Shown here one piece after another: positions 13,524-48,591 of a stretch of 64,000 nucleotides of DNA. The translations under genes were made by a program, and so were the position numbers. The DNA comes from Brachypterus glaber (taxonomy: Eukaryota; Arthropoda; Insecta; Coleoptera; Kateretidae). Below the pieces are notes generated by a model that was not told where the DNA came from, searched no databases, and was given only the letters and a program-made list of their open reading frames with translations. The stretch is taken from contig OY294045.1 in NCBI GenBank assembly GCA_958510825.1, positions 7,863,916 to 7,927,915 of the forward strand. The letters run 5' to 3'. Position 1 is the stretch's first letter. Every line of letters begins with the position of its first letter.

Positions 13524-13708
13524 GGTGTAAATGGAAAGGACGGCCCGCACAGCTTGTGATTCACTACGAAAACGGCTTCACATTATTAGAAGGAGGCACA
13601 GGATCCAGAACTCTCTGGAGATACTCTTATGACAGACTAAGGAATTCCTCAGATGACGGAAAACGATTTTTATGGTTGGACTTTGGGTCCGGCGAGGATG
13701 GTGACGTG
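13524..13708 (+). CDS. Syntrophin penultimate coding exon
   Basis: The acceptor is TTTGTTTTTCAG at 13512-13523. The first two bases finish a codon begun in an upstream exon outside the window. The donor is GTATGT at 13709, after GGTGACGTG. Coding from 13397, including its Met, is read-through of intron and repeat sequence and is not part of the protein. Confidence 0.9.
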
Positions 13709-19700: not shown

Positions 19701-22700
19701 TGCACACCAGTAACTTTTCTTCTAAGACTTTTTCTCATCATATCATAAATTTTTTTAGTGATTTAGTTTAAGACCTTGGGGTCCAGGAATAAAAAAAAAT
19801 ATAAAAATTTTTCGAACGGTTATTTTTCACTGCTGAAAGTTATAAAAACTATTTTTTGAGAATTTTAATGTGGGCCAATACTCAAATTGTATTCAACAAA
19901 AAAAAATAGAAATGTTCTTTTTTTGCCCTTTAAAAAGTATGTATTAATACCGCCTGGCGGGATTACTATAGACTTGAATATAGATAAAATTACATCATTT
20001 TAAAGCTTAAACATTCCTCTACAAAATAAAATTAAATTCACTTTTCTACCTCTACTAATAAAGCGGGAAATTATTTTTGAACGCGATCTATACATTCTAT
20101 ACCACTATGCGTCGGTAGCGACCATGTTAAAAAGTTTTAAAATGCAGAACAGGGTAGTTTTTAAGCCATGCGCTAAACCTAAAAATCTAAATGTACCAAA
20201 GATGGAAAAAAACCTAATTTACCCATTTAAAATAAAAATTCAAATTTTCAGTAATTAGGTTAATTTTTATTTACGTAGTTTACATTTATGAATATTCTTT
20301 TTTCGTTATCTCAATTTGCAAGATGTTTAGCAAAACATACGATGTGGAAATTTAATTAAAGCAAAACTTGGTTTAAAGACCACCAACAAAGAATTTTCAT
20401 CACAAAGAAAATGCATTTAAGTTTTCAATAGAAATATATAAATTTAAAGATGCACAAACTTTTCTTTGTGAAATCAAAGAGTTAGTAGATATGTACTTTT
20501 CATATAAGTGATGACATTATTTTAATTATTAAATCTTATTTAGAAAACAGAGTGCAGTATGTAGAGTATAAAGGCTATAAGTCAAAAGTTTATATTGCTT
20601 ACTCTGGAGTACCGCAGGGTTCTAACCTAGGCCCGCTGCTATTTTTACTTTTTTTTAATGATATACATACTTTCATCAGGTGCTGTAAATTATTATATGC
20701 TGACGATTTAAAGTTGTATTTTGTTATACGCACGATTTTTGATTGTATTGTCTTACAAAAGGATCTAGACAATTTACTTAATTGGTGCTTTATCAATAAA
20801 TTGGACTTAAATGCAAAAAAGTGCAAGGTTATGACTTTCTCACGTAAAAAAAATAATATTTACTTTAATTATGATATAAATAGAGTTATTTTAGAAAGAG
20901 TGTTTGAAATTAAAGACTTAGGTATTACTTTCGATCCAAAATTATATTTTGATGTTCATATAAGTAAAATATGCTCTAGTGCTCGAAAAGTTTTAGGATT
21001 TGTCATTAGAAACACAAAACATTTTTCAAACTGTGATTCAATTAAAACATTATACAATTCGTTTGTCCGTAGCAAACTTGAGTATGCGTGTATAGTATGG
21101 TCCCCTCACTATTCAAAGTATATAAACCAGATTGAAAAAGTGCAGAAAAAATTTCTTAAATATTTATACTTTAAAAAATATAAAGTTTATCCAAACGATG
21201 TTTCGTACTCAGATCTGTTAGAAATGTTTAATGTTCAGCCATTAGTAGAAAGACGTCTTTATCAAAGCATTATTTTTTTATACAAAGTACTGCATAGTCT
21301 GGTAGATGCTCCGTTGTTGCTTGACATGGTAAATATGGCCGTACCGCGTACATCTGCCCGTCAATTTCGTACTTTTCATATTGATGTAACTAACACAGTG
21401 AATCATTTGCACTCTCCTATGTTTGATATGTGCGCATCATACAACAACTTAGGTGATAATATTGATATATTTGATAATAATTTTAATAGGTTTAAAAAAC
21501 ATTTATTAGTTGATGTGAAAAATTGTATGTTGCCTGACATTTAATGTAATCTAATTTATTTTTTATGTTTTTTTTATATGTATTTTTATCTTAGTCTTAG
21601 TTTATATTTTAATCTTAGTTTTAAGCTTTTCTTTGATCCTGTTATTAGGTTCCTTACCTGTTGGATTTGTAATGAATAAATAAATAAATAAATTTTGTTT
21701 CGTATGTTGGTATATTCTTCAAAACAGGCATCCATGTTCTATTTAATTATGTACAGTTTTTTCCATTAGAAAATTATTAAGCATAAGCAAATGACTACCA
21801 CACGGAAAAAAAAAATTATAGCTAGGTGCGCTATAACACACATACCAAGCAAATTATAATCGCTTATTATATAAATACAAGGCTTTCTCTTACAATTATG
21901 GCAGTCAGTGTAAAAATTTATATGAAATACTTTAATTGTTTAGTGAATAATAAAATATAACAAATAGTATGGCATTTATAGCTTAAATAGATTTAATTAT
22001 TGTCCGTGCTAATAATTTTTATAATATAATAAAATTTCTGTAAATTTATAATAGTGCCTGTAATAAATATAATCGTGTCTGTAATATATATAATCGTTTC
22101 CAATTTATTTTTCACATTATTAGTTATTGTGTCCCTTATAATCTATAGCTTAAATCACTATAATTTGCCACTGTTACCAAATATCTTATAATGTATAGCG
22201 CAGAGCCCACTAATTTCTTTCCGTGCACTTGGCTGATATGATTTTTTGATATTTATTCCTAAACATACATAGAACTTATTATGGTCTGTTTGATCAAGCA
22301 AGATAGTAAATTAAAAATCGCACAATGAATATTTTCAAAACAGATTAGAATATTGGATGTGCGAATATACTGCTTGGTTTATTTTATAAAACATAAATAT
22401 ATTCTATACACAAACATATACTAAGGACAGAAATTTTTAATTTTAAACAAAATTATAAAAATATTAATTTATTATTTATTTCTTAATCAGCGTGCAGAGT
22501 TGACTCTTGGTACTGAAGAGGGCCAGCAGCCCGAAACTGTCAGTCTACCAATATCACTCTGTACGATGATTAGAAAATAGATTGATGGAATAATAAATTA
22601 ATATTTTTATAATTTTGTTTAAAATTAAAAATTTCTGTCCTTACTAATTTTACGTCTAACCACCCGTTAGTGGTACTATGTGCTTGAGACACACAAGTCT

Positions 22701-25700
22701 TCAACTTGCTACCATTCAAAGTCTCCAGATAAGGAGAGGTATGAGTAGTTGTCTACATCTAGAAATAGATGGCGCACAAGTCTACATCAATCTAATGGCT
22801 ATATTCCTTTTGCGAGTAAAGTCTAAAAACGTTTTCTTAATCAGCGTGCAGAGTTGACTCTTGGTACTGAAGAGGGCCAGCAGCCCGAAACTGTCAGTCT
22901 ACCAATATCACTCTGTACGATGATTAGAAAATAGATTGATGGAATAATAAATTAATATTTTTATAATTTTGTTTAAAATTAAAAATTTCTGTCCTTACTA
23001 ATTTTACGTCTAACCACCCGTTAGTGGTACTATGTGCTTGAGACACACAAGTCTTCAACTTGCTACCATTCAAAGTCTCCAGATAAGGAGAGGTATGAGT
23101 AGTTGTCTACATCTAGAAATAGATGGCGCACAAGTCTACATCAATCTAATGGCTATATTCCTTTTGCGAGTAAAGTCTAAAAACGTTTTCTTAATCAGCG
23201 TGCAGAGTTGACTCTTGGTACTGAAGAGGGCCAGCAGCCCGAAACTGTCAGTCTACCAATATCACTCTGTACGATGATTAGAAAATAGATTGATGGAATA
23301 ATAAATTAATATTTTTATAATTTTGTTTAAAATTAAAAATTTCTGTCCTTACTAATTTTACGTCTAACCACCCGTTAGTGGTACTATGTGCTTGAGACAC
23401 ACAAGTCTTCAACTTGCTACCATTCAAAGTCTCCAGATAAGGAGAGGTATGAGTAGTTGTCTACATCTAGAAATAGATGGCGCACAAGTCTACATCAATC
23501 TAATGGCTATATTCCTTTTGCGAGTAAAGTCTAAAAACGTTTTCTTAATCAGCGTGCAGAGTTGACTCTTGGTACTGAAGAGGGCCAGCAGCCCGAAACT
23601 GTCAGTCTACCAATATCGCTCTGTACGATGATTAGAAAATAGATTGATGGAATAATAAATTAATATTTTTATAATTTTGTTTAAAATTAAAAATTTCTGT
23701 CCTTACTAATTTTACGTCTAACCACCCGTTAGTGGTACTATGTGCTTGAGACACACAAGTCTTCAACTTGCTACCATTCAAAGTCTCCAGATAGGGAGAG
23801 GTATGAGTAGTTGTCTACATCTAGAAATAGATGGCGCACAAGTCTACATCAATCTAATGGCTATATTCCTTTTGCGAGTAAAGTCTAAAAACGTTTTCTT
23901 AATCAGCGTGCAGAGTTGACTCTTGGTACTGAAGAGGGCCAGCAGCCCAAAACTGTCAGTCTACCAATATCACTCTGTACGATGATTAGAAAATAGATTG
24001 ATGGAATAATAAATTAATATTTTTATAATTTTGTTTAAAATTAAAAATTTCTGTCCTTACTAATTTTACGTCTAACCACCCGTTAGTGGTACTATGTGCT
24101 TGAGACACACAAGTCTTCAACTTGCTACCATTCAAAGTCTCCAGATAAGGAGAGGTATGAGTAGTTGTCTACATCTAGAAATAGATGGCGCACAAGTCTA
24201 CATCAATCTAATGGCTATATTCCTTTTGCGAGTAAAGTCTAAAAACGTTTTCTTAATCAGCGTGCAGAGTTGACTCTTGGTACTGAAGAGGGCCAGCAGC
24301 CCAAAACTGTCAGTCTACCAATATCACTCTGTACGATGATTAGAAAATAGATTGATGGAATAATAAATTAATATTTTTATAATTTTGTTTAAAATTAAAA
24401 ATTTCTGTCCTTACTAATTTTACGTCTAACCACCCGTTAGTGGTACTATGTGCTTGAGACACACAAGTCTTCAACTTGCTACCATTCAAAGTCTCCAGAT
24501 AAGGAGAGGTATGAGTAGTTGTCTACATCTAGAAATAGATGGCGCACAAGTCTACATCAATCTAATGGCTATATTCCTTTTGCGAGTAAAGTCTAAAAAC
24601 GTTTTCTTAATCAGCGTGCAGAGTTGACTCTTGGTACTGAAGAGGGCCAGCAGCCCGAAACTGTCAGTCTACCAATATCACTCTGTACGATGATTAGAAA
24701 ATAGATTGATGGAATAACAAACATATACTATTCAAACCTGTTATAAAAATATTTACTGTGCGATTTTTAATTTTTTAATTTACTATCTTGCTTGAAAAAA
24801 CAGACCATAGCACCTACATGTATAGTAGGGCGGGGGTTACTTAATTTTTACATTTTGGAAACCGTATTTTTTTAAAATCTTAGTTACATGGAAATAGTTT
24901 AGATCTGGAAAAAAAAATGTTTGCAAAAAATATACGTTGCCTAAAAATATTACCGAAAATAAACTTTTTTAAAATATAATAAAACTTCGCCTCCAAATAA
25001 CTCAAAAACTTAATACTTTTACAAAAAATATACAAAATTACATTTTTTGGTCACATTCGGACAAACTTCTTTATATTAAAAAAGTAAAAAAATATGAAAT
25101 TTTGTGCTTTTTACCTTCTTTAAAATTTTAAAAAGCACCACATTTCCGCTTAAAAGCTTTTTATGAGCTTTGATATCTTATAAAAACAATTTTTTTATGC
25201 GTCTTGCTTTTCCCATTTATATGATGAAATAAAAATAATTAGGAATAATTTTTGATATTTTTGCCAGCCAGATTGGATCCGTGATACTGTAAAATATAAT
25301 TTTGACTTATTTTTTGTAACCAGCGACCTCGAATACCTCTGTTTACTAATTTTTCTATAATTTAATCCATATTTGGTATTTATGTCCGCCATATTGGATC
25401 AGCCATTTTGTAAAAAAAATAATTACCTTACCCTGCTGAAAATGACGGGTCTGGGCGGGTATAAATGGTGCATAAACCGGACTTTAGCGGATGTAATTCA
25501 CCCGCTCAAGTCCGGTCTATGCAACATTTATACCCGCGCAGACCCGTTATTTTCAATAGGGTAGATTCATAATTAGTGACTTTATCAACTTGGTAACATG
25601 ATAGTTTAAAGTGTTGGGCAAGTTTATAATTTAAAAAAAATCTAATTTAAAAAAACTTTAAATCAAATCCGCACGGATTAATTAATCTTAAATAATTTTT

Positions 25701-25897
25701 GTGTGTATTTTTTATTAATGTTTCTATTTGTTAAATTTTATATCGGTTGTATACAACTTATAAATGTTTTTTTTTTAATTTAAATATTTTCTTTTTTGTT
25801 CCAGGAACTCGATATGGAAGGATGTCCAAAGCCAATCGTGTTCATTTTACATAACTTCCTATCTGCCAAAATCCATCGACTTGGAATCAATGCCTAA
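13524..25897 (+). CDS. Syntrophin, alpha/beta type, C-terminal part (two exons)
   Basis: Syntrophins are cytoplasmic adaptors that bind dystrophin and place signalling proteins at the membrane. Two exons, 13524-13708 and 25805-25897, join in phase 0 across a 12.1-kb GT-AG intron. They give about 91 residues: the end of the second PH domain ([32 protein letters not shown]) followed by the syntrophin-unique C-terminus ([20 protein letters not shown], then [10 protein letters not shown] and stop). The CPKxxVFILHxFLSAK and RLG motifs are those of vertebrate alpha/beta syntrophins, and Syn1 would be the fly counterpart. The N-terminal PH1a, PDZ and PH1b exons are not in the window. The large intron is filled with transposable elements, including the sense-oriented hammerhead array. 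Confidence 0.9.
13975..14225. repeat. Minisatellite, about 45-50 bp unit
   Basis: About five imperfect copies contain AAATCGTGA, GGAAAATCCCAACAAAAATC and GTGACAATTGTGA. The open frames on the minus strand (13785-14252, 13979-14239) are repetitive translations of it ([14 protein letters not shown]) and are not genes. It lies 270 bp inside the syntrophin intron. Confidence 0.8.
14283..14662. repeat. Cluster of GTTCTCGGCTGGGAT motifs in both orientations
   Basis: Four direct copies lie at about 14287, 14336, 14358 and 14449, and two inverted copies (CAGCCGAGAAC) at about 14506 and 14650. A longer inverted pair surrounds them: CTACTGTACAAGTAAAG near 14389 and its complement near 14620. ATGTGACGCTTACGA is also repeated. 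It looks like the core of a fold-back element or a protein-binding array, and is non-coding. Confidence 0.7.
14663..15396. other. Syntrophin intron sequence, nothing recognised
   Basis: AT-rich. A 90-codon plus-strand open frame (14619-14891) overlaps the motif cluster and has no recognisable domain. Confidence 0.35.
15397..15983. mobile_element. TA-flanked MITE, family C copy 1
   Basis: The terminal inverted repeats carry CCTGTTCCAGAACTCGCGTA and its complement, extend more than 60 bp, and have TA on each side. The interior has no coding frame. A second copy in reverse orientation is at 17360-17963. Confidence 0.85.
15986..16590. other. Syntrophin intron sequence, nothing recognised
   Basis: Apart from a 61-codon plus-strand open frame without a recognisable domain (16368-16553), only AT-rich sequence is seen. 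Confidence 0.35.
16591..16975 (-). pseudogene. Tc1/mariner-type transposase remnant (N-terminal HTH plus C-terminal tail)
   Basis: On the minus strand from about 16978 the translation reads [38 protein letters not shown] and [14 protein letters not shown], the paired-type helix-turn-helix start of Tc1-like transposases. It ends in a stop after FPGS near 16707. In another frame the next stretch reads [17 protein letters not shown], resembling the C-terminal end of such transposases. The catalytic DDE core is absent, so this is an internally deleted copy. Confidence 0.7.
17360..17963. mobile_element. TA-flanked MITE, family C copy 2 (inverted)
   Basis: It has the same ends as 15397-15983 (CAGCCTGTTCCAGAA and TTCTGGAACAGACTG) with TA at 17358-17359 and 17964-17965. 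The interior matches copy 1 in reverse complement, for example the TAGTTTTTCCCTACTTATTA block near 17520. Confidence 0.85.
17966..18730. other. Syntrophin intron sequence with a weak repeat
   Basis: A block around 18290-18410 (with GGATCCAATATGGCGG) resembles one at about 25260-25400 in reverse (CGCCATATTGGATC), so a dispersed repeat is likely. No coding sequence is seen. Confidence 0.4.
18731..19110. repeat. Dispersed repeat, copy 1 (inverted copy at 57.1-57.5 kb)
   Basis: Shared blocks with 57080-57470, in reverse complement, include TTATGAGCTTATAAGAGTCG near 19076, TTATGGGCCTATAAGAACA near 19041 and ACAAAATTTTGTAAAA near 18929. It is non-coding and its boundaries are approximate. Confidence 0.65.
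19174..19213 (-). ncRNA. Hammerhead-like motif, solo Penelope-type remnant
   Basis: The minus strand reads CCTGAGGA, then a GAAAA/TTTTC stem, then GAAACGTCGGC. A GCC/GGC helix can form the outer stem. As in the Penelope element at 53.8/55.6 kb, there is one extra base before the stem and no loop for stem III, so cleavage in cis is doubtful. Confidence 0.45.
19214..20507. other. Syntrophin intron sequence, nothing recognised
   Basis: AT-rich sequence without a supported gene or repeat boundary. Confidence 0.35.
20510..21544 (+). pseudogene. LINE reverse transcriptase, C-terminal half, open frame intact
   Basis: The frame runs uninterrupted from 20510 ([10 protein letters not shown]) to a stop at 21544. 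It contains [20 protein letters not shown], the catalytic [10 protein letters not shown] box, [21 protein letters not shown] and the thumb-region [12 protein letters not shown] motif. The N-terminal RT blocks and the endonuclease are missing. The intact frame suggests a fairly recent insertion. Confidence 0.85.
20510..21692 (+). mobile_element. 5'-truncated LINE (jockey/CR1-like) with (TAAA)n tail
   Basis: The coding part starts abruptly inside the RT domain and the element ends in a short TAAA repeat at about 21675-21692. A short 3' UTR precedes the tail. I could not find a convincing target-site duplication. It lies inside the syntrophin intron in the same orientation as that gene. Confidence 0.8.
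21801..22225. mobile_element. MITE, uninterrupted copy of the nested one at 6504-9365
   Basis: CACGGAAAAA at 21801 and TTTCTTTCCGTG ending at 22225 form terminal inverted repeats. The interior aligns with the three separated pieces of the copy at 6.5-9.4 kb, plus a short local duplication of ATAATCGT near 22070. It serves as the empty-site reference for the two palindromic insertions there. Confidence 0.8.
22507..22551 (+). ncRNA. Type I hammerhead ribozyme, array copy 1
   Basis: Stem I is TTGGTA (22507-22512) pairing with TACCAA (22546-22551). The core CTGAAGA at 22513-22519 fits CUGANGA. Stem II is GGGC/GCCC around loop CAGCA (22520-22532), followed by the conserved GAA plus A15.1 at 22533-22536. 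Stem III is ACT/AGT with a three-base loop GTC. The predicted cleavage site is after C22545 (AGTC). All invariant core bases are present. The very short stem III is typical of retrotransposon-associated hammerheads, which often act best as dimers. Confidence 0.9.
22861..22905 (+). ncRNA. Type I hammerhead ribozyme, array copy 2
   Basis: Identical in core and stems to copy 1, with predicted cleavage after 22899. Predicted active. Confidence 0.88.
23215..23259 (+). ncRNA. Type I hammerhead ribozyme, array copy 3
   Basis: Identical in core and stems to copy 1, with predicted cleavage after 23253. Predicted active. Confidence 0.88.
23569..23613 (+). ncRNA. Type I hammerhead ribozyme, array copy 4
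   Basis: The core is intact. The unit differs from its neighbours by A to G just after the ribozyme (ATATCGCTCTG) and by GATAGGGAGAG further on. Predicted active. Confidence 0.88.
23923..23967 (+). ncRNA. Hammerhead ribozyme, array copy 5, G12 mutated
   Basis: GCCCGAAAC is GCCCAAAAC here. This changes the invariant G12, the general base of the reaction, to A. Predicted inactive or severely impaired. Confidence 0.85.
24277..24321 (+). ncRNA. Hammerhead ribozyme, array copy 6, G12 mutated
   Basis: It carries the same G12 to A change as the adjacent copy 5, which suggests that one unit was copied from the other after the change. Confidence 0.85.
24631..24675 (+). ncRNA. Type I hammerhead ribozyme, array copy 7 (last, unit truncated)
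   Basis: The core is intact. The unit stops about 40 bases after the ribozyme, at the right target-site duplication. Predicted active. Confidence 0.88.
24821..25428. other. Syntrophin intron sequence, nothing clear
   Basis: AT-rich. Contains the CGCCATATTGGATC block that is shared in reverse with about 18380. Confidence 0.35.
25429..25563. mobile_element. Small palindromic MITE (135 bp)
   Basis: TACCCTGCTGAAAATGACGG and its near complement ending AGGGTA form a hairpin through the middle GCGGATG region. It is much more GC-rich than its surroundings. Open frames across it are artefacts of the palindrome. Confidence 0.75.
25805..25897 (+). CDS. Syntrophin terminal coding exon
   Basis: The acceptor is TTTTTTGTTCCAG ending at 25804. 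Thirty codons follow, starting [10 protein letters not shown] and ending RLGINA, with a TAA stop at 25895-25897. This exon encodes most of the syntrophin-unique region. An AATAAA at 26206-26211 is a plausible polyadenylation signal. Confidence 0.92.
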
Positions 25898-33718: not shown

Positions 33719-36700
33719 CTAAAACAGATAAATAATATTATTTATTAAATTAAATTTAAATTTTTAATTGTTGTAACTATCTTGAATCATTTTACCTTAA
33801 TAAATGTAAATCTTAAAATAAAAAAACACTTACCACTAAAGAAATATCATTTGTCATAGGGAAAAACGGTCCGACGGACAAAGTCAAAGGCCTTTGTGAA
33901 CGCAACATAACCAGTAACAGATTTTTCCTAACACTGGAGCTCTTTTCGTACCAGTTACTCATATAAATTGAAGTTGAAAGAGCCATACTCTAAAAATAAA
34001 TACATTCTTATTCCATTAATCTATTTTTTTAATGTATGTACGATGATTGGATTAAAACATTAGATGTTGCATTTATCCGTTTTAAGGTCTATACATCGTC
34101 GGTCTGTCCGTCCGTCCATCCAGAGGCCTACAAGCCATACCGTTTTAAAGATGAAAATTAGACTTTAAACTTAAGGCTTTTACGGGATCGCTCAGGGGGG
34201 TATTATAAAAGTTACAAACATAACAATATTCCATTTCTAGTTTTTCACGGAAAAAAGGCGTAAGGGCGGAAATTATATTTTTGCAATTTTAGCGAAGGTG
34301 GATTAAAATTGACATTTGAAGATTACTTTTTTATCATAACCGATTACAAATGTAGGGTATAGACAAATGCAAGTTTTATGTTAATGCTTACAGATTGCAT
34401 CTTTCCTTTCAGTGTGTAAGACAAGGAAAAAAACAGTTAAGTCCGATCGAAAATGACCTGTGCTGAGGAAAAAGAGTCTTTTTATCGTTTTTATTTTCAA
34501 AAAATTACTGTGCAGGTATTATTTCATTATTTTACAGATTAGTACACACACGCAAAACATTTTGAAAAGTCAACTTCCAGTAATACCATATACCAATACC
34601 TCAATAAAGTGTTATAACCATAAAAATTCCATCATATCAAAAGTAACAAAAAGTGACTTAGCCGGTTTGTCCCTTCAAACGAAACATGATTATAAAAATA
34701 ACAAAAAAATAATCAAACCCTTAAAACTTGTCCGAACCTTGTCAGTTTATTTATATAAAACTACTCACCTCTTCTTTAATTTCATTGGCATACCATGACA
34801 AAAAGAATATCTGGACAACCATTAATCCAAAGTAAACCAATAAGAATATTATATCAGTTATTGGTGGTACCTATATAAATAAAAAAAAGTATTATAATTA
34901 GAATTGCTTTATTTCAGTTGAAAATATTCTAGATGCCAAATTATAAACAGGGATGACCCGATGTTTTTTTTTTTTTTTGGGGTGGAGGGGTGGGTCATAA
35001 ATTTTCCAACTAAATATTAACAATCTCCCAACCCAAAAAAGCTTTACCACCTGTGACGGAAAATTTTGTTTGATGACTAAAAAAAGGTGCTCACCTCTGA
35101 AAAAAACTTTACCACTGACGGAAAATTTTGACAACAAAAAAAAAGGTCTAAGGACTAAAAAAAAGTCCTCGCCTCTACGAACAACCAAACCAACTGTACC
35201 CCTCCAATTTTCGCAACTAGTAAATTTACTGACAATTAAACAAGGTCTTCGGCTCTACCATTTTCTCCACTCTGTCACTATTCTACCAATTTTTAAACTC
35301 TGCTCGACAGTGAATTTTAGAGCGTGGTTTGGACTTGGACTTTGGACGACCCCCCTACCCCCTCATGGTTTCATCCCTGTTCAAGAAGCCTTTTTTTATT
35401 TATTATAGAAATAGTGTTTTCATCTAAAGCTAGAAAAACATATTTCCTATTTTTCTAAAAACTTCATTTCAATGCAAAAAAAAACTATATATATATATAA
35501 AAATACAGGTTTACTTACTGAAAGAAACTGGAATAATATTGCTGCAAGTTGTAATGAATTTAGAGAAAAATCCATGAGTAAAATCATTTTTACAGAATTA
35601 TTGAATATTTTAACATATCTGAAAATAAATTAATCTCATTAAAATACACTGCCCAGTAAAAGAGCTTTCCCATTTTTCACACCCGCTCGTAAAATGGATT
35701 TTTTATTATCAGATTCACTTTCAGCAAACCCCAATATACCAGTTTTCACAAAAACTACCCCCCACTCCTCAGGGGGTGAAATTAGAAAAAAAATTATTAT
35801 AAGATTCAGTTTTAGCGAGCTCAAAAACCCCAATATATAAATTTTCAAAAAAACTACTCAGGGGGTGGAGTAAGATTTTTTTTTATTTTCAGATTTATTA
35901 ACAGGTGAAAATTATCACCTATGACACTGTCACTGTCAAACTAGGTGTCAAACATGTCATCATTAAAAATGCTTATCAAATACTTTGTGTTAAGTTTTTG
36001 CAGACAAAATATAAACTGCACAATGTAATGTCAAGAAAAATTAATACAACATTATGCAAAATTCAGTTATATTTTAGTCGTAATTTGACTGTTAGAAATG
36101 CTTTGGAAGCCAGCGTTTTAATGGGAATTGGAGACTTACTGGCACAAAAAGTGGTTGAGAAAAATGAAAAGTTTGATTTTAAGAGAAATTCTCATTTTGT
36201 AGCTGTTGGATTTTGTTTTGCTGGTCCTGTAAGTTCAAAATGGTTTCAATTTATCAATCGTAGATTACCAATCACAAGTTCGAATCATAATAAGGCAAAA
36301 ACTGTATTAACAAAAGTGTGGTTAGATCAAATGTTTATTGCTCCAATGGGACTAATTTTTACATTGACTACATTAATGTTACTGGACAACAAAACGATAG
36401 AAGAAATTAAGCAAGAACTTAATCATAAATATTTTACAATTTTAAAAAATAATTATAAAGTATGGCCTTTTGTACAGTTCTTTAACTTTTATTTTGTACC
36501 TTTGAAAAGACAAGTTGCTGTTTGCCAAATTGTAGGAATAATTTGGAACTGTTATCTTTCTTATGCGTATAAAAAATAAACATCAAATATTTAAAGTTAA
36601 TACATATTAGTTTTTTTTTAGTATTTCTCTTGGCACTGAAGAAGTCGAGCAGCCCGAAACTATCAGTTTACCAATATCACTCTGTGCGATGATTATAAAA

Positions 36701-38181
36701 TACATTGATGGAATAATAAATTAATATTTTTATAATTGTGTTTAAAATTAAAAATTTCTGTCCTTACTACAGTTTATAAAACTATAATACAGCCGCACTT
36801 TGATTACTGTGGATCAATTTTATATCTTTTAGACAATAATTCCAAAGATGTCTTGCAAAAGCTTCAAAATCGTGGAATGAGGATTATTTTACGATGTAGT
36901 AGGCTAACTTCTATTAATTTAATGCTCGGTACTCTGAAATGGATGTCAGTAATACAGCGACTGAATTTTTTGACTATGTGTTTTGTTTATAAGATTAAAA
37001 ATCATCAAATGCCTGTATATTTTAATAATTTTTTTAACTATGGTAGAGATGTTCATAGTTACGAAACTAGGAACAGAAATAATTTTTATATTAATAGAGT
37101 AAATACCACAAGGGGAATAAATTCTTTATTTCACAAAGGCTTTAATGCATTTAACAATTTACCAATTGTTATTAAGGATAGTCCGTCATTAAGAATTTTT
37201 AAAAATCGTCTTTCTGAACACATTTTGTTGTAACTGTGTTTTGCTTTACTTTGCTTTAATATAATCTAATTATACTAAGGTCTCTCATTACTTCTCATTA
37301 TTATTTTTTTTTTCACCATCTCTCTTTTATATTTTTGTTTTTTTTTATATCTTTATATATTCTATTATTTTTATTTTGTTATTATATTTAATGTTTATTA
37401 TTATAACATATTTATATTTGTTTATAAAGAACATTGTATAATTACTTTTGTGTATATTAGGCAAGTCCTATTTAATAAATTTCATTTCATTTCATTAATA
37501 AATTTAATAAATTTCATTTCATTTCATTTCATTTCACTAATTCTACGTCTAACCACATGTTGGTGGTACTATGTGGTTGAGACACACAAGTCTTTAACTT
37601 GCTACCATTCAGTCTACAGACTAGGAGAGTTATGAGTAGTTGTCTACATATAGCAATAGATGGCGCACAAGTCTAAATCAATCTAATGACTATATTTCTT
37701 ATGTGAATAAAGTCTAAAAACGTTTTGTTAATCAACGTGCAGAGTTGACTTTTGGTACTAAAGAGGGCCAGCAGCCCGAAACTGTCAGTCTACCAATATC
37801 AGTCTGTACGATCATTAGAAAATATATTGATGAAATAATAAATTAATATTTTTGTGTAATTTTGTGTAAGGTTAAAAATTTTTGTCCTTACTATAACTAT
37901 TTTATCATTATTATTGCTTTCTCTGGAACTAAACGACTCATCATCAGACTTAAAATTCAAAGTTTTAAACTGTGCAAGAATAAACATCATAGTTGTTACA
38001 AAAACTACTTGGGTTGTTGCATTAAAAGTGCAACCAATGAAACATGATACACAATTTATGGTAAACGCTGTAACGTAATGTTCGTCAGTGTTAAATGGGA
38101 ACCACATATAATAAGGTAAAGGTTTTCTTCTGTAAATGGTAACATTAAAGTCTTCTGGAATTTATTCTAGATTAGAATACT

Positions 38182-38248
<67 letters not shown>

Positions 38249-39295
38249 TGGAACTAGTGATGTCTCAGCTATACCAACATACTACTACTACTACTAATAA
38301 TATTTTACTTTTAAATTTGAATAATTTACTTCTAAATTTTAAAATTTTATATTTTGGTTTGTATTTTATTGTTTTAATAAGAATATATGGACAAGCGCAC
38401 ATATCTAATATTTAAATCTTTAAATTTAAATATGTATATCATGTAAAAATATCATAAACTAAAATATGTCTACAACTTACTCTATAATATTATTATGCTC
38501 AATAATAAACTTTCTAATAGTAGCTAAAACTATTTTATCATTATTATTGCTCTCTCCGGAACTACAAGGCTCATCATCAGACTTAATGCAATAATCATCT
38601 AAATTCTTAAACTTAAAATTCAAAATTTTCAACTGTCCAAGAATAAATATCATAACTGTTACAAAAACTACTTGGGTTGTTGCATTAAAAGTGCAACCAA
38701 TGAAACATGATACACAATTTATGGTAAACGCTGTAACGTAATGTTCGTCAGTGTTAAATGGGAACCACATATAATATGGTAAAGGTTTTCTTCTGTAAAT
38801 GGTAACATTAAAGTCTTCTGGAATTTCTTCTAGGTTGGAATACTCAATATATTTTGTTGAAACTAAAGATATTCCAACTATAGCTGTATATACTACTAAT
38901 ATTGCACTTCTAAATAAAGCTATTTTGGTCTGTTTATTGTATATATGCAAAACTTTCGCATCACATAATTTTCTAAAATTTTCTTCATAGTTTAAAACGT
39001 ATTTTAGCAAATCTCTGACACTGTCTGATTGTAGTATTAAAATTTTTGTGTAGATCATTATAACTAGTAAAAATATTGCTAGATTTTCGGTTAACTTGTT
39101 TCTAGCTACAAAGAACTGGTTTATAACTTCCATGAAAATTGAGATGAGGAAAACCAGAAAATAGTTTGGACAAAAATATGAGTAATATTTAAAAAATATT
39201 AGTATAAAACTAAATTTGGTCTTTAAGGGTATTTTCCAAACGCCTGTAATGACCATCAGAAATTTGACAAGTTTTAAATGATTTATATTTTGCAT
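33668..39295 (-). CDS. Odorant receptor (7tm_6), complete, five exons
   Basis: The exons are 39295-38481, 35618-35519, 34870-34769, 33989-33834 and 33718-33668. All introns are GT-AG and all phases match, giving 408 codons including the stop (407 residues), the normal size for an insect odorant receptor. These are membrane proteins that form ligand-gated ion channels with the co-receptor Orco in olfactory neurons. Exon 1 holds the N-terminal hydrophobic segments and FPFNTDEHYVTAFTI. Later exons hold VYFGLMVVQIFFLSWYANEI, the family hallmark LLVMLRSQRPLTLS and the C-terminal TLKAAYSYVTLLRRSR. Introns 1 (2.9 kb) and 2 contain an Mpv17 gene on the other strand, hammerhead repeats and LINE sequence. 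A second receptor with a compatible splice phase lies upstream. Confidence 0.92.
33834..33989 (-). CDS. Odorant receptor exon 4
   Basis: Fifty-two codons include SNWYEKSSSVRKNLLLVMLR and SQRPLTLSVGPFFPM, the most conserved part of insect odorant receptors. The acceptor is TTATTTTTAG and the donor is GTAAGT. Confidence 0.92.
34769..34870 (-). CDS. Odorant receptor exon 3
   Basis: Thirty-four codons from VPPITDIIFL to NEIKEE, phase 0 at both ends, acceptor TTTATATAG and donor GTGAGT. It encodes a transmembrane helix. Confidence 0.9.
34871..35518. other. Odorant receptor intron 2 with short internal duplications
   Basis: CTTTACCAC..TGACGGAAAATTTTG and AAAAAAAGGT/AAAAAAAGTCCTC are repeated around 35040-35170. 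The open frames on both strands here (34898-35188, 35070-35408) are lysine-rich low-complexity translations and overlap each other, so I do not call them genes. Confidence 0.5.
35519..35618 (-). CDS. Odorant receptor exon 2
   Basis: The acceptor is TTTATTTTCAG. The exon completes the split Glu codon and reads YVKIFNNSVKMILLMDFSL then NSLQLAAILFQFLS. The donor is GTAAGT. It is 100 nt and too short to stand out as an open frame. Confidence 0.9.
35692..35890 (+). repeat. Two copies of the ~120-bp tandem repeat seen at 5.8-6.3 kb
   Basis: It shares TTATTATCAGATTCA, CTCAGGGGGTG and CAAAAACCCCAATATA blocks with the first array. It ends about 140 bp before the preferred start of the Mpv17 gene, so it occupies that gene's promoter region. 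Confidence 0.7.
36028..36579 (+). CDS. Mpv17/PMP22-family membrane protein, intronless
   Basis: Members of this family are small four-helix proteins of the inner mitochondrial or peroxisomal membrane. The open frame starts at 35905, but I prefer the Met at 36028 (MSRKINTTLCKIQLYF), because family members start shortly before the conserved RNALEASVLMGIGDLLAQ. That gives 183 residues, a usual length. Other hallmarks are DFKRNSHF, FAGPVSSKWFQFINRRLP, KVWLDQMFIAPMG and the C-terminal signature KVWPFVQFFNFYFVPLKRQV, then GIIWNCYLSY. No stop or frameshift interrupts it. AATAAA overlaps the stop codon. It lies on the opposite strand within intron 1 of the odorant receptor. Lack of introns suggests either a single-exon gene or an old retrocopy that kept its frame. 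Confidence 0.85.
   Translation: MSRKINTTLCKIQLYFSRNLTVRNALEASVLMGIGDLLAQKVVEKNEKFDFKRNSHFVAVGFCFAGPVSSKWFQFINRRLPITSSNHNKAKTVLTKVWLDQMFIAPMGLIFTLTTLMLLDNKTIEEIKQELNHKYFTILKNNYKVWPFVQFFNFYFVPLKRQVAVCQIVGIIWNCYLSYAYKK
36630..36674 (+). ncRNA. Decayed hammerhead ribozyme (stem II broken)
   Basis: The core CTGAAGA and GAAAC are kept. Stem II is AGTC/GCCC instead of GGGC/GCCC, stem I has a mismatch (TTGGCA), and the cleavage triplet is GTT instead of GTC. Probably inactive. Confidence 0.7.
36771..37535 (+). pseudogene. 5'-truncated LINE RT C-terminus inserted in the hammerhead dimer
   Basis: The reading frame begins VYKTIIQPHFDYCGSILY just after the repeat breaks off. It continues through VLQKLQNRGMRIILRCSR, LGTLKWMSVIQRL and the ETRNRNNF region to a stop at 37233, the usual end of a CR1/L2/jockey-type ORF2. 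A T-rich 3' UTR and repeated TTTCATTTCA follow. The array unit supplies the uninterrupted target (CCTTACTAATTTTACG); 'acta' is repeated at both edges. Confidence 0.8.
37752..37796 (+). ncRNA. Decayed hammerhead ribozyme (G5 mutated)
   Basis: Stem I, stem II, GAAAC and the AGTC cleavage site are as in the array. The core reads CTAAAGA, which changes the invariant G5, so it is predicted inactive. Confidence 0.75.
37897..38277 (-). pseudogene. Odorant receptor exon 1 fragment, pseudogene
   Basis: It is nearly identical to the 3' half of exon 1 of the receptor at 38.5-39.3 kb (MWFPFNTDEHYVTAFTINC, FNATTQVVFVT, SNNNDKIV). It has an in-frame TAA in place of the second Glu of NLEEIPEDF, a short deletion and the hammerhead repeat abutting its 3' end. 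An AT microsatellite has expanded inside the codons after AKY. It represents a partial tandem duplication within the intron of the intact receptor. Confidence 0.85.
38187..38242. repeat. (AT)n microsatellite inside the receptor pseudogene
   Basis: About 28 AT repeats lie at the place where the intact paralog has only ATATATT, showing expansion from a coding seed. Confidence 0.9.
38481..39295 (-). CDS. Odorant receptor exon 1
   Basis: ATG at 39295-39293 opens 271 codons plus two bases, ending HNNIIE at the donor GTAAGT (38480-38475). It contains VFVTVMIFILGQLKILNFKF, aligned to the second receptor, and an Asn/Ser-rich intracellular stretch (SGESNNNDK). Confidence 0.92.
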
Positions 39296-43932: not shown

Positions 43933-44062
43933 TAGTACAACGTTTTCTGGTCAACTCTGATGTAATATTTTGAAAACGCTTCTATCCGACAAATGGAGTT
44001 ACTGCTTTCTAGGGTAGTAGGGCAGTATAGTACACCCTTACATTCATATTTTGTATACTTAC

Positions 44063-44285
44063 TCAATTATTTTGTTATGTTCCCGAATAAACTTTTTCAC
44101 AGTCCGCAAAATATTAACTTCAGTGAAATTTCCATTGCAGTACTGATCCAGATTGCCAAACTTATGCTGGAGAATTTGAAATTGGCCTCTGATGAAAATT
44201 AAAGTTGTGATAAAAAATACGCTTGTTGTAGCATTATATGTTGATCCAGTGAATGTACAAAATGTGTGATATGTTATTGCAACTC
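44063..44285 (-). CDS. Second odorant receptor exon 2
   Basis: The acceptor is TTTTTTATTAG at 44286. The exon reads VAITYHTFCTFTGSTYNATT, then RGQFQILQHKFGNLDQYC, then the conserved REHNKIIE. The donor is a perfect GTAAGT (44062-44057). Confidence 0.82.
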
Positions 44286-47200
44286 CTAATAAAAAATATA
44301 AGTTTTTGGTGCCAAATTTATAAAAATTTTTAATCATTAAGGAAAATTTTATATTTTGGTGGGCACTACTTTGGTTAATTTGGGCCAATAAATCGATATA
44401 AGAAGAGAGCCTAACATAAAAAAAAAATCCCAAAATAATCAGTTAATTAAATAAAAAAGTAAAAAATAAAAACTTTTCGCAAAAAAATTAACCGACTTGT
44501 ATGTCTCTAAAAAGTAAAAAATAAAAAATACTTAAGTCGATGCCAGTTTCAGCATTCCCTAAATTAATTACTAACAATTATTTTTTTATTATTTTTTGCT
44601 GTGAAATTGGCGCCGACTAAAGTATTTTTTATTTTTTACTTTTTAGAGACATAGAAGTCGGTTCATTTTTTTTGAGAAAAGTTTTTATTTTTTACTTTTT
44701 AGAGACACAGAACTTGTAGATTTGTAAAGTCATCTAAGCTAAATTATAGTTGTCCTTCCATCTCGGCAAGCTGCTGACGTCAAAACGTAGTGCGTTATGA
44801 CGTCATTATCTTAAAGATAAATTTCTAAAAAGTAAAAGTAATATTTTTATTTCAGCGCCCAAGAGTCCAACCAACCTTATTTTAAACGAAATAATAAAGA
44901 AAATCTTATTAAACTTTAAGCGTTAAGTAATAATCAAACAACGCCTTTTGGTAAAATCACAACATTTATCATTTTCTCTTGGTATTTTAATATTACAGGT
45001 CCAGAGAATCAAGTTTAGCGGCATTTAAAAGATTTTCAGGGTGCCGTAAAATTTAAGTGACCCCTTAAGTTATCCGGCTTATCCGAGCTATCCGATATTT
45101 TTCTAAAACTTTGGCTGGTAGTAGAACCAAGTTAAGCCGTTTTTAAGTGAAATTGCCTTAAAATGATTAGATTTATCTTAATTATCCGGCTTACCCGGCA
45201 TTATCCGAGCGTCAAATTAAAACGAGACCACCTTATGAATGCCCTCTTTAAGTTGCAAAAAGTTTCATCAAATTAGGTTCATTCGTTCCAAAGTTATGCG
45301 GGAATAAACATAAATAAAAAGAAAGTCACACGTCGAATTGATAACCTCCTCCTTTTTGAAAGTCGGTTAAAAACAGAACCTTGCGGGTTCCTATGTATCT
45401 TTTTGTATTCTATCCTAGTACTTCTAGTTGCTAAACACAAACTTATTGATAGGTTGACACAATCCCAAATACCTATTCTTTACAGTTTTTATATTGTGTC
45501 TAAGAAATTTTTGATCTACTGTATCAAACGCATTGATTAAATAAAAATAATAATAATCCTTTATCTCCTAGATAGATTATAGATTTGTATTAAATGATTT
45601 GGTTTAAGAAGACATGTAAACTTATTATTATTATTTTTTTTTAATTAAGAGTTAGTTCGTATGTATAGTTTTTGGTATGCTGACTCCAAAAATCACTTTT
45701 AATTATTATCAAGTCAAAATTGTTTGCAAACACTAGTGTAGCCACCCAATAATAAAATAAATAAATTGCATTTTTTAAATTAGCTTTAATACTCACAAGT
45801 ACCTATTTTAAAATCCCCATTATTGGGTTACTTAAACTTTAAAAAGTTATCTTTTTTTATTTCTTTATTTATTTTTGGATTTCAGGCGCCTTTTCACGGA
45901 GTAATTTATACGCAAGTTTGGTGCTATGCAAGTTTGCTGCCAGATATATCATGAGGACAATTACACATTCATTTGCCTTTTCACGGAGCAAATTATACGC
46001 AAGTTTGACGCTATATATTGCAAGTTAAACAATGCTGCCAACCAGACAATTTTGACATGTCTCTGCATTTTTTGACAAAAGCATAACCTAGAATTTGATT
46101 TTTTAAGGAAGCTTATTAGTTAGACAGACCGGCCTATTATTAATAACAATAATTATTAACGTGTCCAGTTGCTACTATATTAGTAAAAAGAAATCGATTT
46201 AGTAACTTTTTTCTAGGTTGGTACCACGAATATAACTATAAATCTTGCATGAAAATCGTCGAAAAATAGAACTTGTTCTAATAATTTAATGGCTCAAAAA
46301 TAGCATCAAATTTGCCTGAAGGCATGGGCAGTGACTGAATCATTCTTGCAACAAAATTGCATAGCACCAAACTTGAGTACAAATTGCTCCGTGAAAAGGA
46401 GCCTTTATAAATGCAATTTACAAAAACTCTTAAAGGATGGAAAACATGGAAATGATTTTCAGAAAGCAAACCAGGTTCTCATATTCCTAAATGACTCTGT
46501 TATTACATATCTGTATATTATTATTGACAGCCATCAAGAGATGTCATGTTTTGAAAATATCAGACACAAAATTTTAGTAATTATTTGTACAAAAACCATT
46601 TTAAAATCAAGTATATTATGGTAACGGCATACAAAACTTCCCAGAATATGTGTAATTGAAATCACGCAAAGAATTCTTCTAAAATTAACACTTTGGAGGA
46701 AGACCAAGAAGAAGCCGATCTGCTATCTATACCAAGATAAAATATTTTTTGTAATTTGTATTCAAAATTAATGGAGAGCCCCTAGCACAAGCATATGCTT
46801 ATTTGGGACTCTCCATGACACTGTATATTGTTCAAATAAATCAATAATACTTAATAATAATAATAATAATATAGCTTATAAGCCGGGTCTATTTTTTTTT
46901 TTCATTGGCGATAGCCGCAAAAGTTCTGCCCTTTTTAAGGACCAACTGACGATACTTTCATATTTTGAGCTTCTGATCTAAAAACACGTACCTACATGTT
47001 TTAAATCGGTTAACATTTCGGACAGCCGCTACCAAAAAGAAGCAAACATTCTAAAAATATTACGTACGCGCAATATTTTGCACAGTTATATCGGATATAT
47101 TTGAGAGTATCTATAGGATTTGGTTGAAAAAAAGTTCAAGTTTTCTATTTTTAGCCAAGTTTTAAAATGGCAAGTCTACTATTAAAAAAAAATAATAATC

Positions 47201-48591
47201 ATGTAATAGCATACGAAGTGAAAACTTTTGCGGGTATCGTCATTAGCGAAATCAATTTTTTGACTACTTACTTACTGTACAGAGCAGTCCAAAAGTCACC
47301 CCCCACCCCTCTTAACTTTTGAACCAGTTAAGATATCGACTTCAAATTTGGAACTTTTAAATAAGACAACTTAAACTATCTTTTAGCATATATTTAATAC
47401 TTTCAGCTCTTAAAATGTGGGATTGGGGGGCATGGGGGCACATTTTTTTAAATGAAAAGGGGAGTCGTGTAATAATCATTTTAAAGCTTATAAAATTCTC
47501 CTTTTAACTCCATATTTTTAAATTTAAAAAAAAATGGGTTTAAAATGGGGTTGAAAATGGGTATTAATGTCAAAATTCCTCTAAAAAAAACCAATAGTTT
47601 TTTAAAAATGCCTAATTTCATCATAAAAAAATGTTAATTATACTTTAAACTAATTTTAGTTGACATAAAAAAAAATTAAAAAAAAACCTAAAAAGTCGAA
47701 TATTTTAGCACAAAAAATTGATAAATCAAAACCTTAAAAAACATTTTTAAAAAATTTAAAAATGCTAGTTTAAATAGAGAATTTTATAAGCTTTAAAATC
47801 ACGTATCACACGACCCCCCTTTACATTTAAAAAAATGTCCCCCCATGCCACCCTGTCCACATTTTAAGAGCTGAAAATATCAAATATATGCTAAACGATA
47901 GTTTAAGTTGTCTTATTTAAGAGTTTTAAATTTGAAGTCAATATCTCAACTCGTTCAAAAGTTAAAAGGGTGGGGTGACTTTTGGACCGCACTGTATAAT
48001 TTAGGCCATACCATAATGTTCATCAGTATTAAATGGAAACCAAGAATGATACTGCAATGGTTTCCTCTGATAATATGTACCATTAAAACCTTCTGGTAGT
48101 TCTGGCAAGTTTAAATAAGCAATATATTTCGAACCAACCAATAAAACTGCAGTTGTAAGCGAAAATGACAGCAAAATAATATTTCTTGAAAAACAGGTGT
48201 TCGAATTGGAAATGTAAATTTTCTTTATTGCTCTATCACCAGAGTTAAGGATCAACTCTTCCTCTTCCAGGATATAGGCCAATAAATTCCTTATTTCTGG
48301 AGTTCTTATCCTTAATATTTTCATCAAAATCATGAAGCAAAGTAACATGAATGTTAAGCTGTCAGTTATCAGTGATGGGTCCACATATATCAAATTAAAT
48401 GTTTCTACAAACATACCAAACCAGTAGACAAAGAAAAAACCAAAATAAAACATTGAATAGAATTTATATATAGTTTTAAGAATTTTTGATTTTGTGGTTA
48501 ATGGTATTTTCCATAACCCAGTTAGAACCATCAAAGCTTTTAAAGATCTTAGATGGTACATGGTGAATTTTAACTTCTCAACTGTTATCAT
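44063..48591 (-). CDS. Second odorant receptor, N-terminal two exons (C-terminus not found)
   Basis: Exon 1 (48591-48012) and exon 2 (44285-44063) join TAT-G to GA-GTT in frame across a 3.7-kb GT-AG intron. Across the join, HYGVAITYHTFCTFTGSTYN aligns without a gap to HYVTAFTINCVSCFIGCTFN of the intact receptor, which has no intron there. About 267 residues result, ending REHNKIIE in the same phase as exon 1 of the other receptor. No exons 3-5 equivalents lie between 44.06 and 39.3 kb. It is either truncated or spliced to the downstream receptor's shared C-terminal exons. The intron holds three transposable elements. Confidence 0.75.
44459..45372. repeat. Dispersed 'ACCGACTTC' repeat, copy 2 (inverted), in the receptor intron
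   Basis: Reverse complement of the family at 4757-5412, ending AAAGTCGGTTAAAAA at 45372. It is longer than copy 1 because of an extra TTTTACTTTTTAGAGACA module near 44630-44710. Confidence 0.75.
45884..46404. mobile_element. MITE with ~48-bp terminal inverted repeats
   Basis: CCTTTTCACGGAGTAATTTA at the left is matched in reverse by AAATTGCTCCGTGAAAAGG at the right, and the TIR extends into GCAAGTTTGGTGCTATGCAA. An internal copy of the terminal motif occurs at about 45973. No target duplication is clear. Open frames over its right end are not genes. Confidence 0.8.
46405..47279. other. Receptor intron sequence, nothing recognised
   Basis: AT-rich. An ATA/AAT run lies near 46855-46870. No coding or repeat partner is identified. 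Confidence 0.35.
47280..47994. mobile_element. Palindromic TA-flanked element, family D
   Basis: CAGAGCAGTCCAAAAGTCAC and the complement ending GTGACTTTTGGACCGCACTG flank a palindrome centred near 47635, with TA at 47278-47279 and 47995-47996. Its right end lies only 15 bases inside the intron donor of the second odorant receptor. Confidence 0.82.
48012..48591 (-). CDS. Second odorant receptor exon 1
   Basis: ATG at 48591, with an alternative Met ten codons later (MYHLRSLKALMVLTGLWKIP) that aligns better with the paralog start. The donor is G|GTATGG at 48011. It contains FPFNTDEHYG as in the paralog. The stop seen at 48001 lies in the intron. Confidence 0.82.

Follow-up and report, generated by a model that had tools for sequence, protein, structure and literature searches.

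Retrozyme block in the last syntrophin intron

The window, the whole stretch of 64,000 nucleotides of Brachypterus glaber DNA analysed here, contains the two coding exons that flank the last intron of a syntrophin gene, the upstream one being the syntrophin C-terminal exon (Table 1). Both exons and a tandem array in the intron between them lie on the + strand, so that the array is sense-oriented, in agreement with a previous sequence-only reading of this DNA. An open reading frame (ORF) with the look of a LINE-like reverse transcriptase (Pfam RVT_1) is also present in this intron, at 20552-21541.

Tandem-repeat analysis gave a period of 354 bp, 6.3 copies and 99% identity for positions 22479-24721, and the six full units plus a partial one that had been counted before were recovered. 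The block is bounded by a perfect 14-bp direct repeat, and the earlier interpretation of this repeat as a target-site duplication (TSD) around a block inserted as one unit holds. The description as a plain direct array, however, applies to the direct units only: an inverted arm at the left end, where an inverted repeat of 58 nt (98%) was detected, had been missed, and owing to this arm the insertion is head-to-head. The outer ends of the block lie at two unit positions, hereafter site A and site B.

Table 1. Positions in the window of the syntrophin exons, the retrozyme block and the Penelope-like element (PLE).
Feature	Positions	Strand	Basis
Syntrophin coding exon upstream of the last intron (Pfam PF23012, 74.6 bits)	13524-13708	+	splice sites by eye
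Retrozyme TSD, left copy, 14 bp, ACAAACATATACTA	22410-22423	.	repeat search and sequence
Inverted arm, unit in opposite orientation; outer end at site B (unit position 159, ending CTGTCCTTA)	22424-22476	-	
Direct array ending at site A in a partial unit, after six full 354-bp units (22485-24608)	22479-24716	+	
Hammerhead 1, intact core, predicted cut after 22545	22507-22551	+	pattern search
Hammerhead 2, intact core, predicted cut after 22899	22861-22905	+	pattern search
Hammerhead 3, intact core, predicted cut after 23253	23215-23259	+	pattern search
Hammerhead 4, intact core, predicted cut after 23607	23569-23613	+	pattern search
Hammerhead 5, G12 to A, predicted inactive	23923-23967	+	pattern search
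Hammerhead 6, G12 to A, predicted inactive	24277-24321	+	pattern search
Hammerhead 7, intact core, predicted cut after 24669	24631-24675	+	pattern search
Retrozyme TSD, right copy, 14 bp, immediately 3′ of the site A end (GGAATA)	24717-24730	.	
Last syntrophin coding exon, through the stop codon ending at 25897	25805-25897	+	splice site by eye
PLE left TSD, TGTAATATAATTA	53754-53766	.	
PLE main arm, 5′-truncated; outer end A′ (ribozyme cut +52)	53767-55098	-	
PLE inverted arm; outer end B′	55099-55693	+	
PLE minimal hammerhead-like motif, cut expected after 55607	55573-55610	+	read by eye
PLE right TSD	55694-55706	.	

Animal non-LTR retrozymes are described as carrying a type I hammerhead in units of 150-450 bp repeated in tandem, with a GC content <50%, TSDs >4 bp and a highly self-paired predicted circle, insects being among the named hosts (Cervera and de la Pena, 2020, PMC7229834). 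The block is alike in its type I hammerhead, its dispersed tandem units of 354 bp, its GC content of 36%, its 14-bp TSD and the predicted self-pairing of its RNA, for which the circular minimum free energy is predicted at -93.3 versus a mean of -65.3 for 100 shuffles (z -6.0; z -4.5 for the predicted linear fold). No ORF of at least 100 aa lies within it, and it is not a PLE: it is PLE-like in its ends only, without a reverse transcriptase (RT) or GIY-YIG ORF. The block is an animal retrozyme, that is a 354-bp unit without coding capacity that carries a type I hammerhead and is arrayed head-to-head between 14-bp target duplications, and its former identification as retrozyme-like is upheld.

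Hammerhead ribozymes of the array

A search by core and stem pattern identified seven hammerheads in the array, with stems I, II and III of 6, 4 and 3 bp; the chance control yielded 2 matches in total in 200 first-order Markov sequences of window length. A complete hammerhead had been claimed for each unit, which is correct for five of the seven, the core being intact, and incorrect for those at 23923 and 24277, where G12 is replaced by A and which are predicted from this substitution to be inactive. The hammerheads would cut transcripts of the array, including the syntrophin pre-mRNA, into 354-nt units, which a host ligase would circularise; owing to the two core-mutated ribozymes, the predicted products of the window copy are three 354-nt monomers and one 1062-nt trimer, not 354-nt circles only.

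The covariance comparison with the Rfam type I hammerhead, proposed earlier as a check, did not recover the motifs: no Rfam model matched at gathering score in the whole window, and no hammerhead family matched the retrozyme block at E<=10. For the 76 bases around one motif, the best Rfam match was RAGATH-1-hammerhead, with 17.3 bits versus a cut-off of 56.3. The genome listing contains one Hammerhead_1 match (L001), a solitary motif distinct from those of the array. Four matches in the window to a different hammerhead pattern, at 375, 12690, 13126 and 13403, belong to another repeat.

Ends, targets and junctions of the retrozyme family

The genome search for other copies, also suggested by the sequence-only reading, found 5026 ribozyme copies at up to 3 mismatches, versus 0 with the reversed-pattern control, and the retrozyme copies are dispersed over many contigs. 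We mapped 39 arrays, which were the best-scoring of 381 candidates, a choice that favours young, near-identical copies. In 27 of the 39, the window array included, site A (unit 109-119, mode 113) forms one outer end and site B (unit 154-164, mode 159) the opposite one, head-to-head, and no array with A at both ends or B at both ends was found among the 39. The ribozyme cut falls after unit position 61, which puts the modes of A and B at cut +52 and cut +98, respectively. If the two ends were independent, with p = 0.5 for each site, 27 mixed pairs out of 27 would be expected with p ~7e-9. A single reverse transcription from one end, as had been put forward for the window array, does not account for these two fixed head-to-head end sites. 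The LINE/SINE pattern of one fixed 3′ end and a variable other end does not describe the family either, two fixed ends being present in 27/39 arrays and a single end in five.

The other 12 arrays fail the automated A/B rule and are counted against a PLE origin of the ends, yet two of them (L038 and L069) appear A/B by eye. The five single-ended arrays have site A without a second site (L034, L048, L051, L058) or site B alone (L057); three (L032, L040, L054) combine one site with another end elsewhere, and L044 and L065 have neither A nor B under the automated rule.

In 25 arrays the TSDs measure 11-17 bp (mean 13.6), and the targets carry A at -3 in 19/25 and at -2 in 21/25; on the mirror side, T at +3 in 13/25 is not significant (p 0.13). 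Microhomology of at least 2 nt was present at 16 of 29 inner junctions, versus 18% expected, and 10 of the 29 carry extra or mismatched bases without overlap, which counts against the proposed insertion by a PLE. Among the first matches listed, all of them exact and on contig 1, all of the opposite-strand neighbours within 1 kb (11/11, counted from the list) are head-to-head. Sequence variants return at intervals of two or three units in L042, L045, L049 and L050 and are common to adjacent units in L056 and the window array, which does not fit a single monomer circle. Cut linear monomers as template would concentrate the inner ends of arrays at the ribozyme cut; by eye these ends are scattered, and the idea was dropped.

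The Penelope-like element of the same genome

An abundant PLE of this genome has a copy in the window, 30 kb from the retrozyme array. Its protein (53900-55126) has 1047 homologues at E<=1e-10; PF00078 is found in most of the 120 listed, and PF01541, or the name GIY-YIG endonuclease, in a few, and on this homology to RVT_1 and GIY-YIG proteins the sequence at 53900-55126 is assigned to the PLEs. The window protein itself reached 22.8 bits with Pfam RVT_1, below the cut-off of 29.6; it had no PF01541 match in the Pfam search, no match in the PDB at E<=0.1 and, in NCBIfam, matches far below cut-off only, with a group II intron RT at the top. Its hammerhead-like motif matches no Rfam hammerhead family, a result that counts against the proposed insertion by a PLE. 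A first look at the genome gave 5635 PLE candidates, of which the best 102 were scored; these are 98-100% identical to the window protein, and most have no stops inside the match. The PLE family has recently multiplied.

We read the ends of 17 PLE copies. They recur at A′ (cut +52 to +55) and B′ (cut ~+85), with an offset between the two of 34 to 36 nt by alignment and 31 to 34 by eye, and the ORF-bearing arm ends at A′ in 11/17 and at B′ in 6/17. An inverted arm lies within the stretch read in nine copies; seven of these pair A′ at one end with B′ at the other, A′/A′ and B′/B′ being absent among the seven with both ends at these sites, and in L071 and L074 the inverted arm ends elsewhere. Five copies (L072, L077, L078, L080, L081) appear to be single-ended and have direct repeats of 10-15 bp, and the remaining three (L076, L083, L085) were placed in neither class. 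The seven A′/B′ copies have TSDs of 13-14 bp (mean 13.4) and targets with T at +2 in 7/7 and at +3 in 6/7; on the mirror side, A at -3 (4/7, p 0.27) and at -2 (5/7, p 0.09) is not significant.

Retrozyme and PLE are alike in their head-to-head copies, whose two ends lie at two different sites, in TSDs of ~14 bp and in the first end site at cut +52, whereas the second differs (B at +98, B′ at ~+85). No sequence likeness between their ends was evident by eye, and the fetched retrozyme loci (L032-L069) gave no PLE sequence; among the PLE loci, only L080 contains retrozyme sequence, the PLE sitting there inside a retrozyme. The lack of evident likeness at the ends, the different second site and the lack of PLE sequence in these retrozyme loci count against the proposed insertion by a PLE, and the abundant PLE is a candidate partner only.

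Discussion

What moves animal retrozymes is an open question in the field. PLEs have been put forward as a strong candidate only (PMC7229834), a proposal that rested on co-occurrence and shared hammerheads (PMC7229834, PMC7761336). Ends of the A/B kind provide a specific mark of PLE-type integration that can be counted, here in a family of 5026 ribozyme copies with the ends read in 39 arrays. The two-site head-to-head ends set these copies apart from the animal retrozymes as described in PMC7229834, in the main text of which the word "inverted" occurs 0 times, and no report of such ends on retrozymes was found in open-licence PMC text, judged by title and abstract start.

The closest mechanistic parallel comes from PLEs. 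PAc, an Anolis PLE, cuts and extends both strands at AT-rich targets and has two internal RT start sites downstream of the hammerhead, the interval between them being the genomic tail; its hammerhead cut is at ORF +26 and its main start at ORF +111-118 (Frangieh et al., 2024, PMC11167929). The retrozyme likewise has two sites 3′ of the hammerhead; it codes for neither the RT nor the GIY-YIG endonuclease that make PAc autonomous, and its genomic ends are one A and one B, whereas no strand difference in the start site of PAc was observed in vitro (PMC11167929). Penelope of Adineta vaga carries an inverted pLTR at one end, with head-to-head order most frequent and a 31-bp tail optional on one of the inverted pLTRs, and a PLE of this species apparently acts in trans on another gene (Arkhipova et al., 2013, PMC3846280). 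The inverted arm, the optional one-sided tail, the order and the action in trans are points of likeness; the differences are that the Adineta elements are coding, that their TSDs are of 8-10 bp or none, and that palindromes at the inverted junctions are read there as self-priming on antisense template (PMC3846280).

The combination of A and B ends in 27/39 arrays fits priming from both sides of a break, as known for PLEs, and we consider it probable that the retrozyme block was inserted by a PLE enzyme, with both 3′ ends of a staggered cut priming at two fixed internal sites. The enzyme would make a staggered cut in the chromosome, and both 3′ ends would prime on the retrozyme RNA, at A and B. 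The template RNA may be circular or multimeric, so that each cDNA could run through many units by rolling-circle copying, and the two cDNAs would then be joined mid-block, often via short microhomology. Independent choices of site should often give A/A or B/B, and their absence among 27 retrozyme arrays and seven PLE copies points to a single RNA, or an asymmetric dimer, common to the two ends. This A-plus-B rule also constrains the PLE mechanism itself.

It is unlikely, in our judgement, that the retrozyme was moved instead by another two-ended RT sharing the PLE end rule, for example a second, more divergent PLE family. The lack of evident common sequence at the ends of the retrozyme and the abundant PLE, the position of B (+98 versus ~+85) and the fact that the best 102 of 5635 candidates scored were all 98-100% identical to the window PLE protein would suit such an enzyme, and nothing direct speaks against it, but the abundant PLE is the sole machinery of this kind seen. 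This explanation overlaps the one preferred here insofar as that enzyme is a PLE.

A LINE enzyme acting by target-primed reverse transcription, with the inverted arms as L1-style twin-priming products, could draw on the RT ORF in the same intron (20552-21541) and on the existence of single-ended retrozyme copies, and LINEs have TSDs of similar length and can have inverted 5′ pieces. LINE and SINE copies, however, have one fixed 3′ end and a variable other end, and in twin priming the second primer begins at scattered internal sites, whereas both outer ends fall on two fixed sites, one each, in 27/39 arrays, a two-site plan that the PLE copies of the same genome share; the LINE explanation is therefore improbable. 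We give still less credit to the earlier model, in which one multimeric transcript was reverse transcribed in a single step that began at one end: the single TSD pair, the 99% identity of the tandem units and the single-ended arrays (L034, L048, L051 and L058 at A, L057 at B) agree with it, but the inverted arm of the window array has its outer end at site B and 27/39 arrays have both an A and a B end. Hardly credible is an origin of the arrays as satellite DNA that expanded through unequal exchange or through DNA circles that re-inserted, with the ribozyme irrelevant to spread; exchange after insertion could produce the recurring variants (L042, L045, L049, L050, and in adjacent units L056 and the window array), but the dispersal over many contigs with TSDs and fixed ends speaks against this origin.

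Beyond insertion by a PLE enzyme, retrozymes might be minimal Penelope parasites that keep only the hammerhead and two start sites, the first equally spaced, with one RNA circle loaded into the break and rolling-circle RT from both sides, one start site per side. We advance this tentatively, as slightly less likely than not; if true, it would be a natural route that writes an RNA circle directly into a chromosome as a head-to-head array. Copying by a PLE enzyme, if true, would settle how animal retrozymes move, and the question can be tested directly, since an assay with purified enzyme is already available for another PLE. Plant LTR retrozymes are alike in being non-autonomous, with a hammerhead and circular RNA (Cervera et al., 2016, PMC4918200), and differ in their LTRs with PBS and PPT, their 4-bp TSD and the Gypsy machinery proposed for them (as given in PMC7229834).

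Retrozyme arrays of the genome and their ends

A search of the 648-Mb genome for the 48-base ribozyme with up to 3 mismatches returned 5026 copies (2547 forward, 2479 reverse), and none in either direction with the reversed-pattern control. From the matches listed by a DNA search with one 354-bp unit, in which 39 of 381 candidates were scored, we defined 39 arrays, that of the window included; the other 38 were fetched with their flanks (loci L032 to L069). Arrays were aligned to the unit, and each end was located from the exact 12-mer match lying farthest out, ends being called A at unit positions 105–124 and B at 153–172. By this rule 27 of the 39 arrays have one end at A (109–119, mode 113) and the other at B (154–164, mode 159), and none of the 39 mapped is A/A or B/B. 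L038 and L069 failed the automated rule, yet are A/B by eye. Among the remainder, four have an A end and lack the second site (L034, L048, L051, L058), L057 has a B end only, three use one site and end elsewhere on the other side (L032 at B, L040 and L054 at A), and L044 and L065 were placed at neither site by the rule. Target-site duplications (TSDs) measure 11–17 bp (mean 13.6) in the 25 arrays with a clear duplication, namely 24 of the 27 A/B arrays (L045, L055 and L063 being left out) and L069. At the inner junctions between arms, microhomology of at least 2 nt occurs in 16/29, where 18% would be expected; 10/29 show bases that are extra or mismatched. The retrozyme cut falls after unit position 61, which puts A, at 113, at +52.

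Among 104 near-full units (at least 341 bp matched), 49 are identical to the window unit, in a search that favours such copies. In L042, L045, L049 and L050 unit variants return at every second or third unit and skip the neighbours, a pattern suggestive of a dimeric or trimeric template; in L056 and the window array variants are common to adjacent units.

The array in the syntrophin intron

Repeat analysis of the window detected a tandem repeat with a 354-bp period across the array. The sequence-only reading had placed it in sense orientation in the last syntrophin intron, within a perfect 14-bp duplication; it does lie between two same-strand syntrophin exons, in the last coding intron, and the duplication is present at both borders. 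The count of six full units plus a partial one also held, but an inverted arm at the left end had been overlooked, and the order within a single target duplication is inverted arm, six full units, partial unit. Because the left end holds a piece of the unit in opposite orientation, the insertion is head-to-head. The ORF scan found no ORF of at least 100 aa in the array, which is therefore not a Penelope-like element (PLE); its content is that of an animal non-LTR retrozyme, and its ends behave like those of a PLE insertion.

The hammerhead is present in seven copies across the array. Each unit had been credited with a complete one; five of the seven have an intact core and are predicted to cut after AGTC, their stems being 6, 4 and 3 bp long, whereas those at 23923 and 24277, in two adjacent units, carry G12A. 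A change of G12 to A cripples the hammerhead ribozyme. This one is private to the window array, as it is absent among the variants found in at least 2 of the 39 arrays. Transcripts of the array, syntrophin pre-mRNA included, are predicted to yield three monomers of 354 nt and a single trimer of 1062 nt. As a circle, the unit has a strong predicted fold (z −6.0 against shuffles). The hammerhead search gave 2 matches in 200 random windows of a Markov control. With the Rfam models, the check that had been proposed, the array fell below thresholds, so that its identification as a hammerhead is based on the core, on all three stems and on the surrounding repeats.

A Penelope-like element of the same genome

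Within the window, 30 kb from the array, lies a PLE with an RT-bearing protein whose homologues carry GIY-YIG. This copy is 5′-truncated and head-to-head, with 563-bp arms at 100% identity and a 13-bp TSD. By eye, a minimal hammerhead-like motif overlaps the ORF start as read, as described for PAc, the Anolis PLE; no hammerhead family in Rfam matches it. We read 17 copies, the window copy and 16 fetched from 102 scored, chosen for short open frames. Relative to the expected cut, the counterparts of the two retrozyme sites are A′ at +52 to +55 and B′ at about +85, and the ORF-bearing arm ends at A′ in 11/17 copies and at B′ in 6/17. An inverted arm was within the stretch read in nine, seven of which (the window copy, L070, L073, L075, L079, L082 and L084) pair an A′ end with a B′ end, and in these seven the TSDs are 13–14 bp; the inverted arms of L071 and L074 terminate elsewhere. 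Five copies (L072, L077, L078, L080, L081) are seemingly single-ended, with direct repeats of 10–15 bp, and the remaining three (L076, L083, L085) were assigned to neither form.

The spacing from cut to A is the same in the retrozyme as in the PLE of this genome, and the tail is longer in the former, 46 vs about 31–36 in the latter. Head-to-head and single-ended forms with the same end sites occur in both alike. A target motif, AA before the TSD and TT after it, is supported on one side only in each family.

Discussion

Purified Anolis PLE protein cleaves an AT-rich target on both strands and extends each of them, and copying begins at two sites within the RNA, the interval being the genomic tail; the PAc hammerhead cuts at ORF +26, with the main start lying at ORF +111–118, or +85–92 from the cut; in vitro, no difference between the strands was seen in where copying started (PMC11167929). 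Rotifer Penelope is described with pLTRs in inverted orientation, one of which carries a 31-bp tail, and with head-to-head order (PMC3846280). The retrozyme arrays share this plan of head-to-head order and two end sites. Two reports propose PLEs as the mobilising partner of retrozymes from co-occurrence (PMC7229834, PMC7761336). New here are the signature at the ends and, on retrozymes, the pairing rule of one A with one B; in searches of open-licence PMC text, none of the papers listed reports two-site head-to-head retrozyme ends, judging by title and abstract start.

We propose that the enzyme of a PLE, this family being the candidate partner, would make a staggered chromosomal cut, where one 3′ end would prime at A and the other at B. 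Each cDNA would extend up to the ribozyme and beyond it, and tandem units would result from an RNA template that was circular or multimeric; the two cDNAs would then be joined, often via microhomology. No copy with both ends at the sites is A/A or B/B, which suggests that the two ends share one RNA or depend on an asymmetric dimer. The recurring unit variants (L042, L045, L049, L050, L056 and the window array) speak against one monomer circle having served as the template; they could stem from RNAs of two or three units, from template jumps or from exchange at a later stage.

Additional features

Several further features were seen in the window and at the fetched loci (see table). The ribozyme of the older retrozyme copy is predicted dead because its core reads CTAAAGA. 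Parts of the L038 repeat also occur in L049, L061, L065 and L076. In L080 the PLE copy lies within a retrozyme unit and is flanked by a 10-bp repeat.

Coordinates of the features (window positions unless a locus is named)
Feature	Position	Strand or orientation	Remarks
Repeated stretch	375, 12690, 13126, 13403		hammerhead-like match with the looser script, not seen under the stricter rule; adjoins syntrophin exon
RT ORF	20489-21541		same syntrophin intron as the array; RVT_1, LINE-like by eye
Retrozyme array	22410-24730	sense to syntrophin
Inverted arm	22424-22476	opposite to direct units	53 bp of unit, left end
Older retrozyme copy	36627-36769 + 37536-37893		90-93% identity, ends at site B; pieces parted by ~770 bp holding an RT-like ORF fragment (by eye)
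Putative insect odorant receptor ORFs	38477-39295, 44059-44433, 48001-48591	minus	by eye
PLE copy	53767-55693
Interspersed repeat in array locus L038	3205-3904 of L038		700 bp, between two retrozyme pieces within one insertion
Separate hammerhead locus L001	G000 C10:30938340-30938386		lone canonical Hammerhead_1 match, 45.8 bits; sequence context differs from retrozyme
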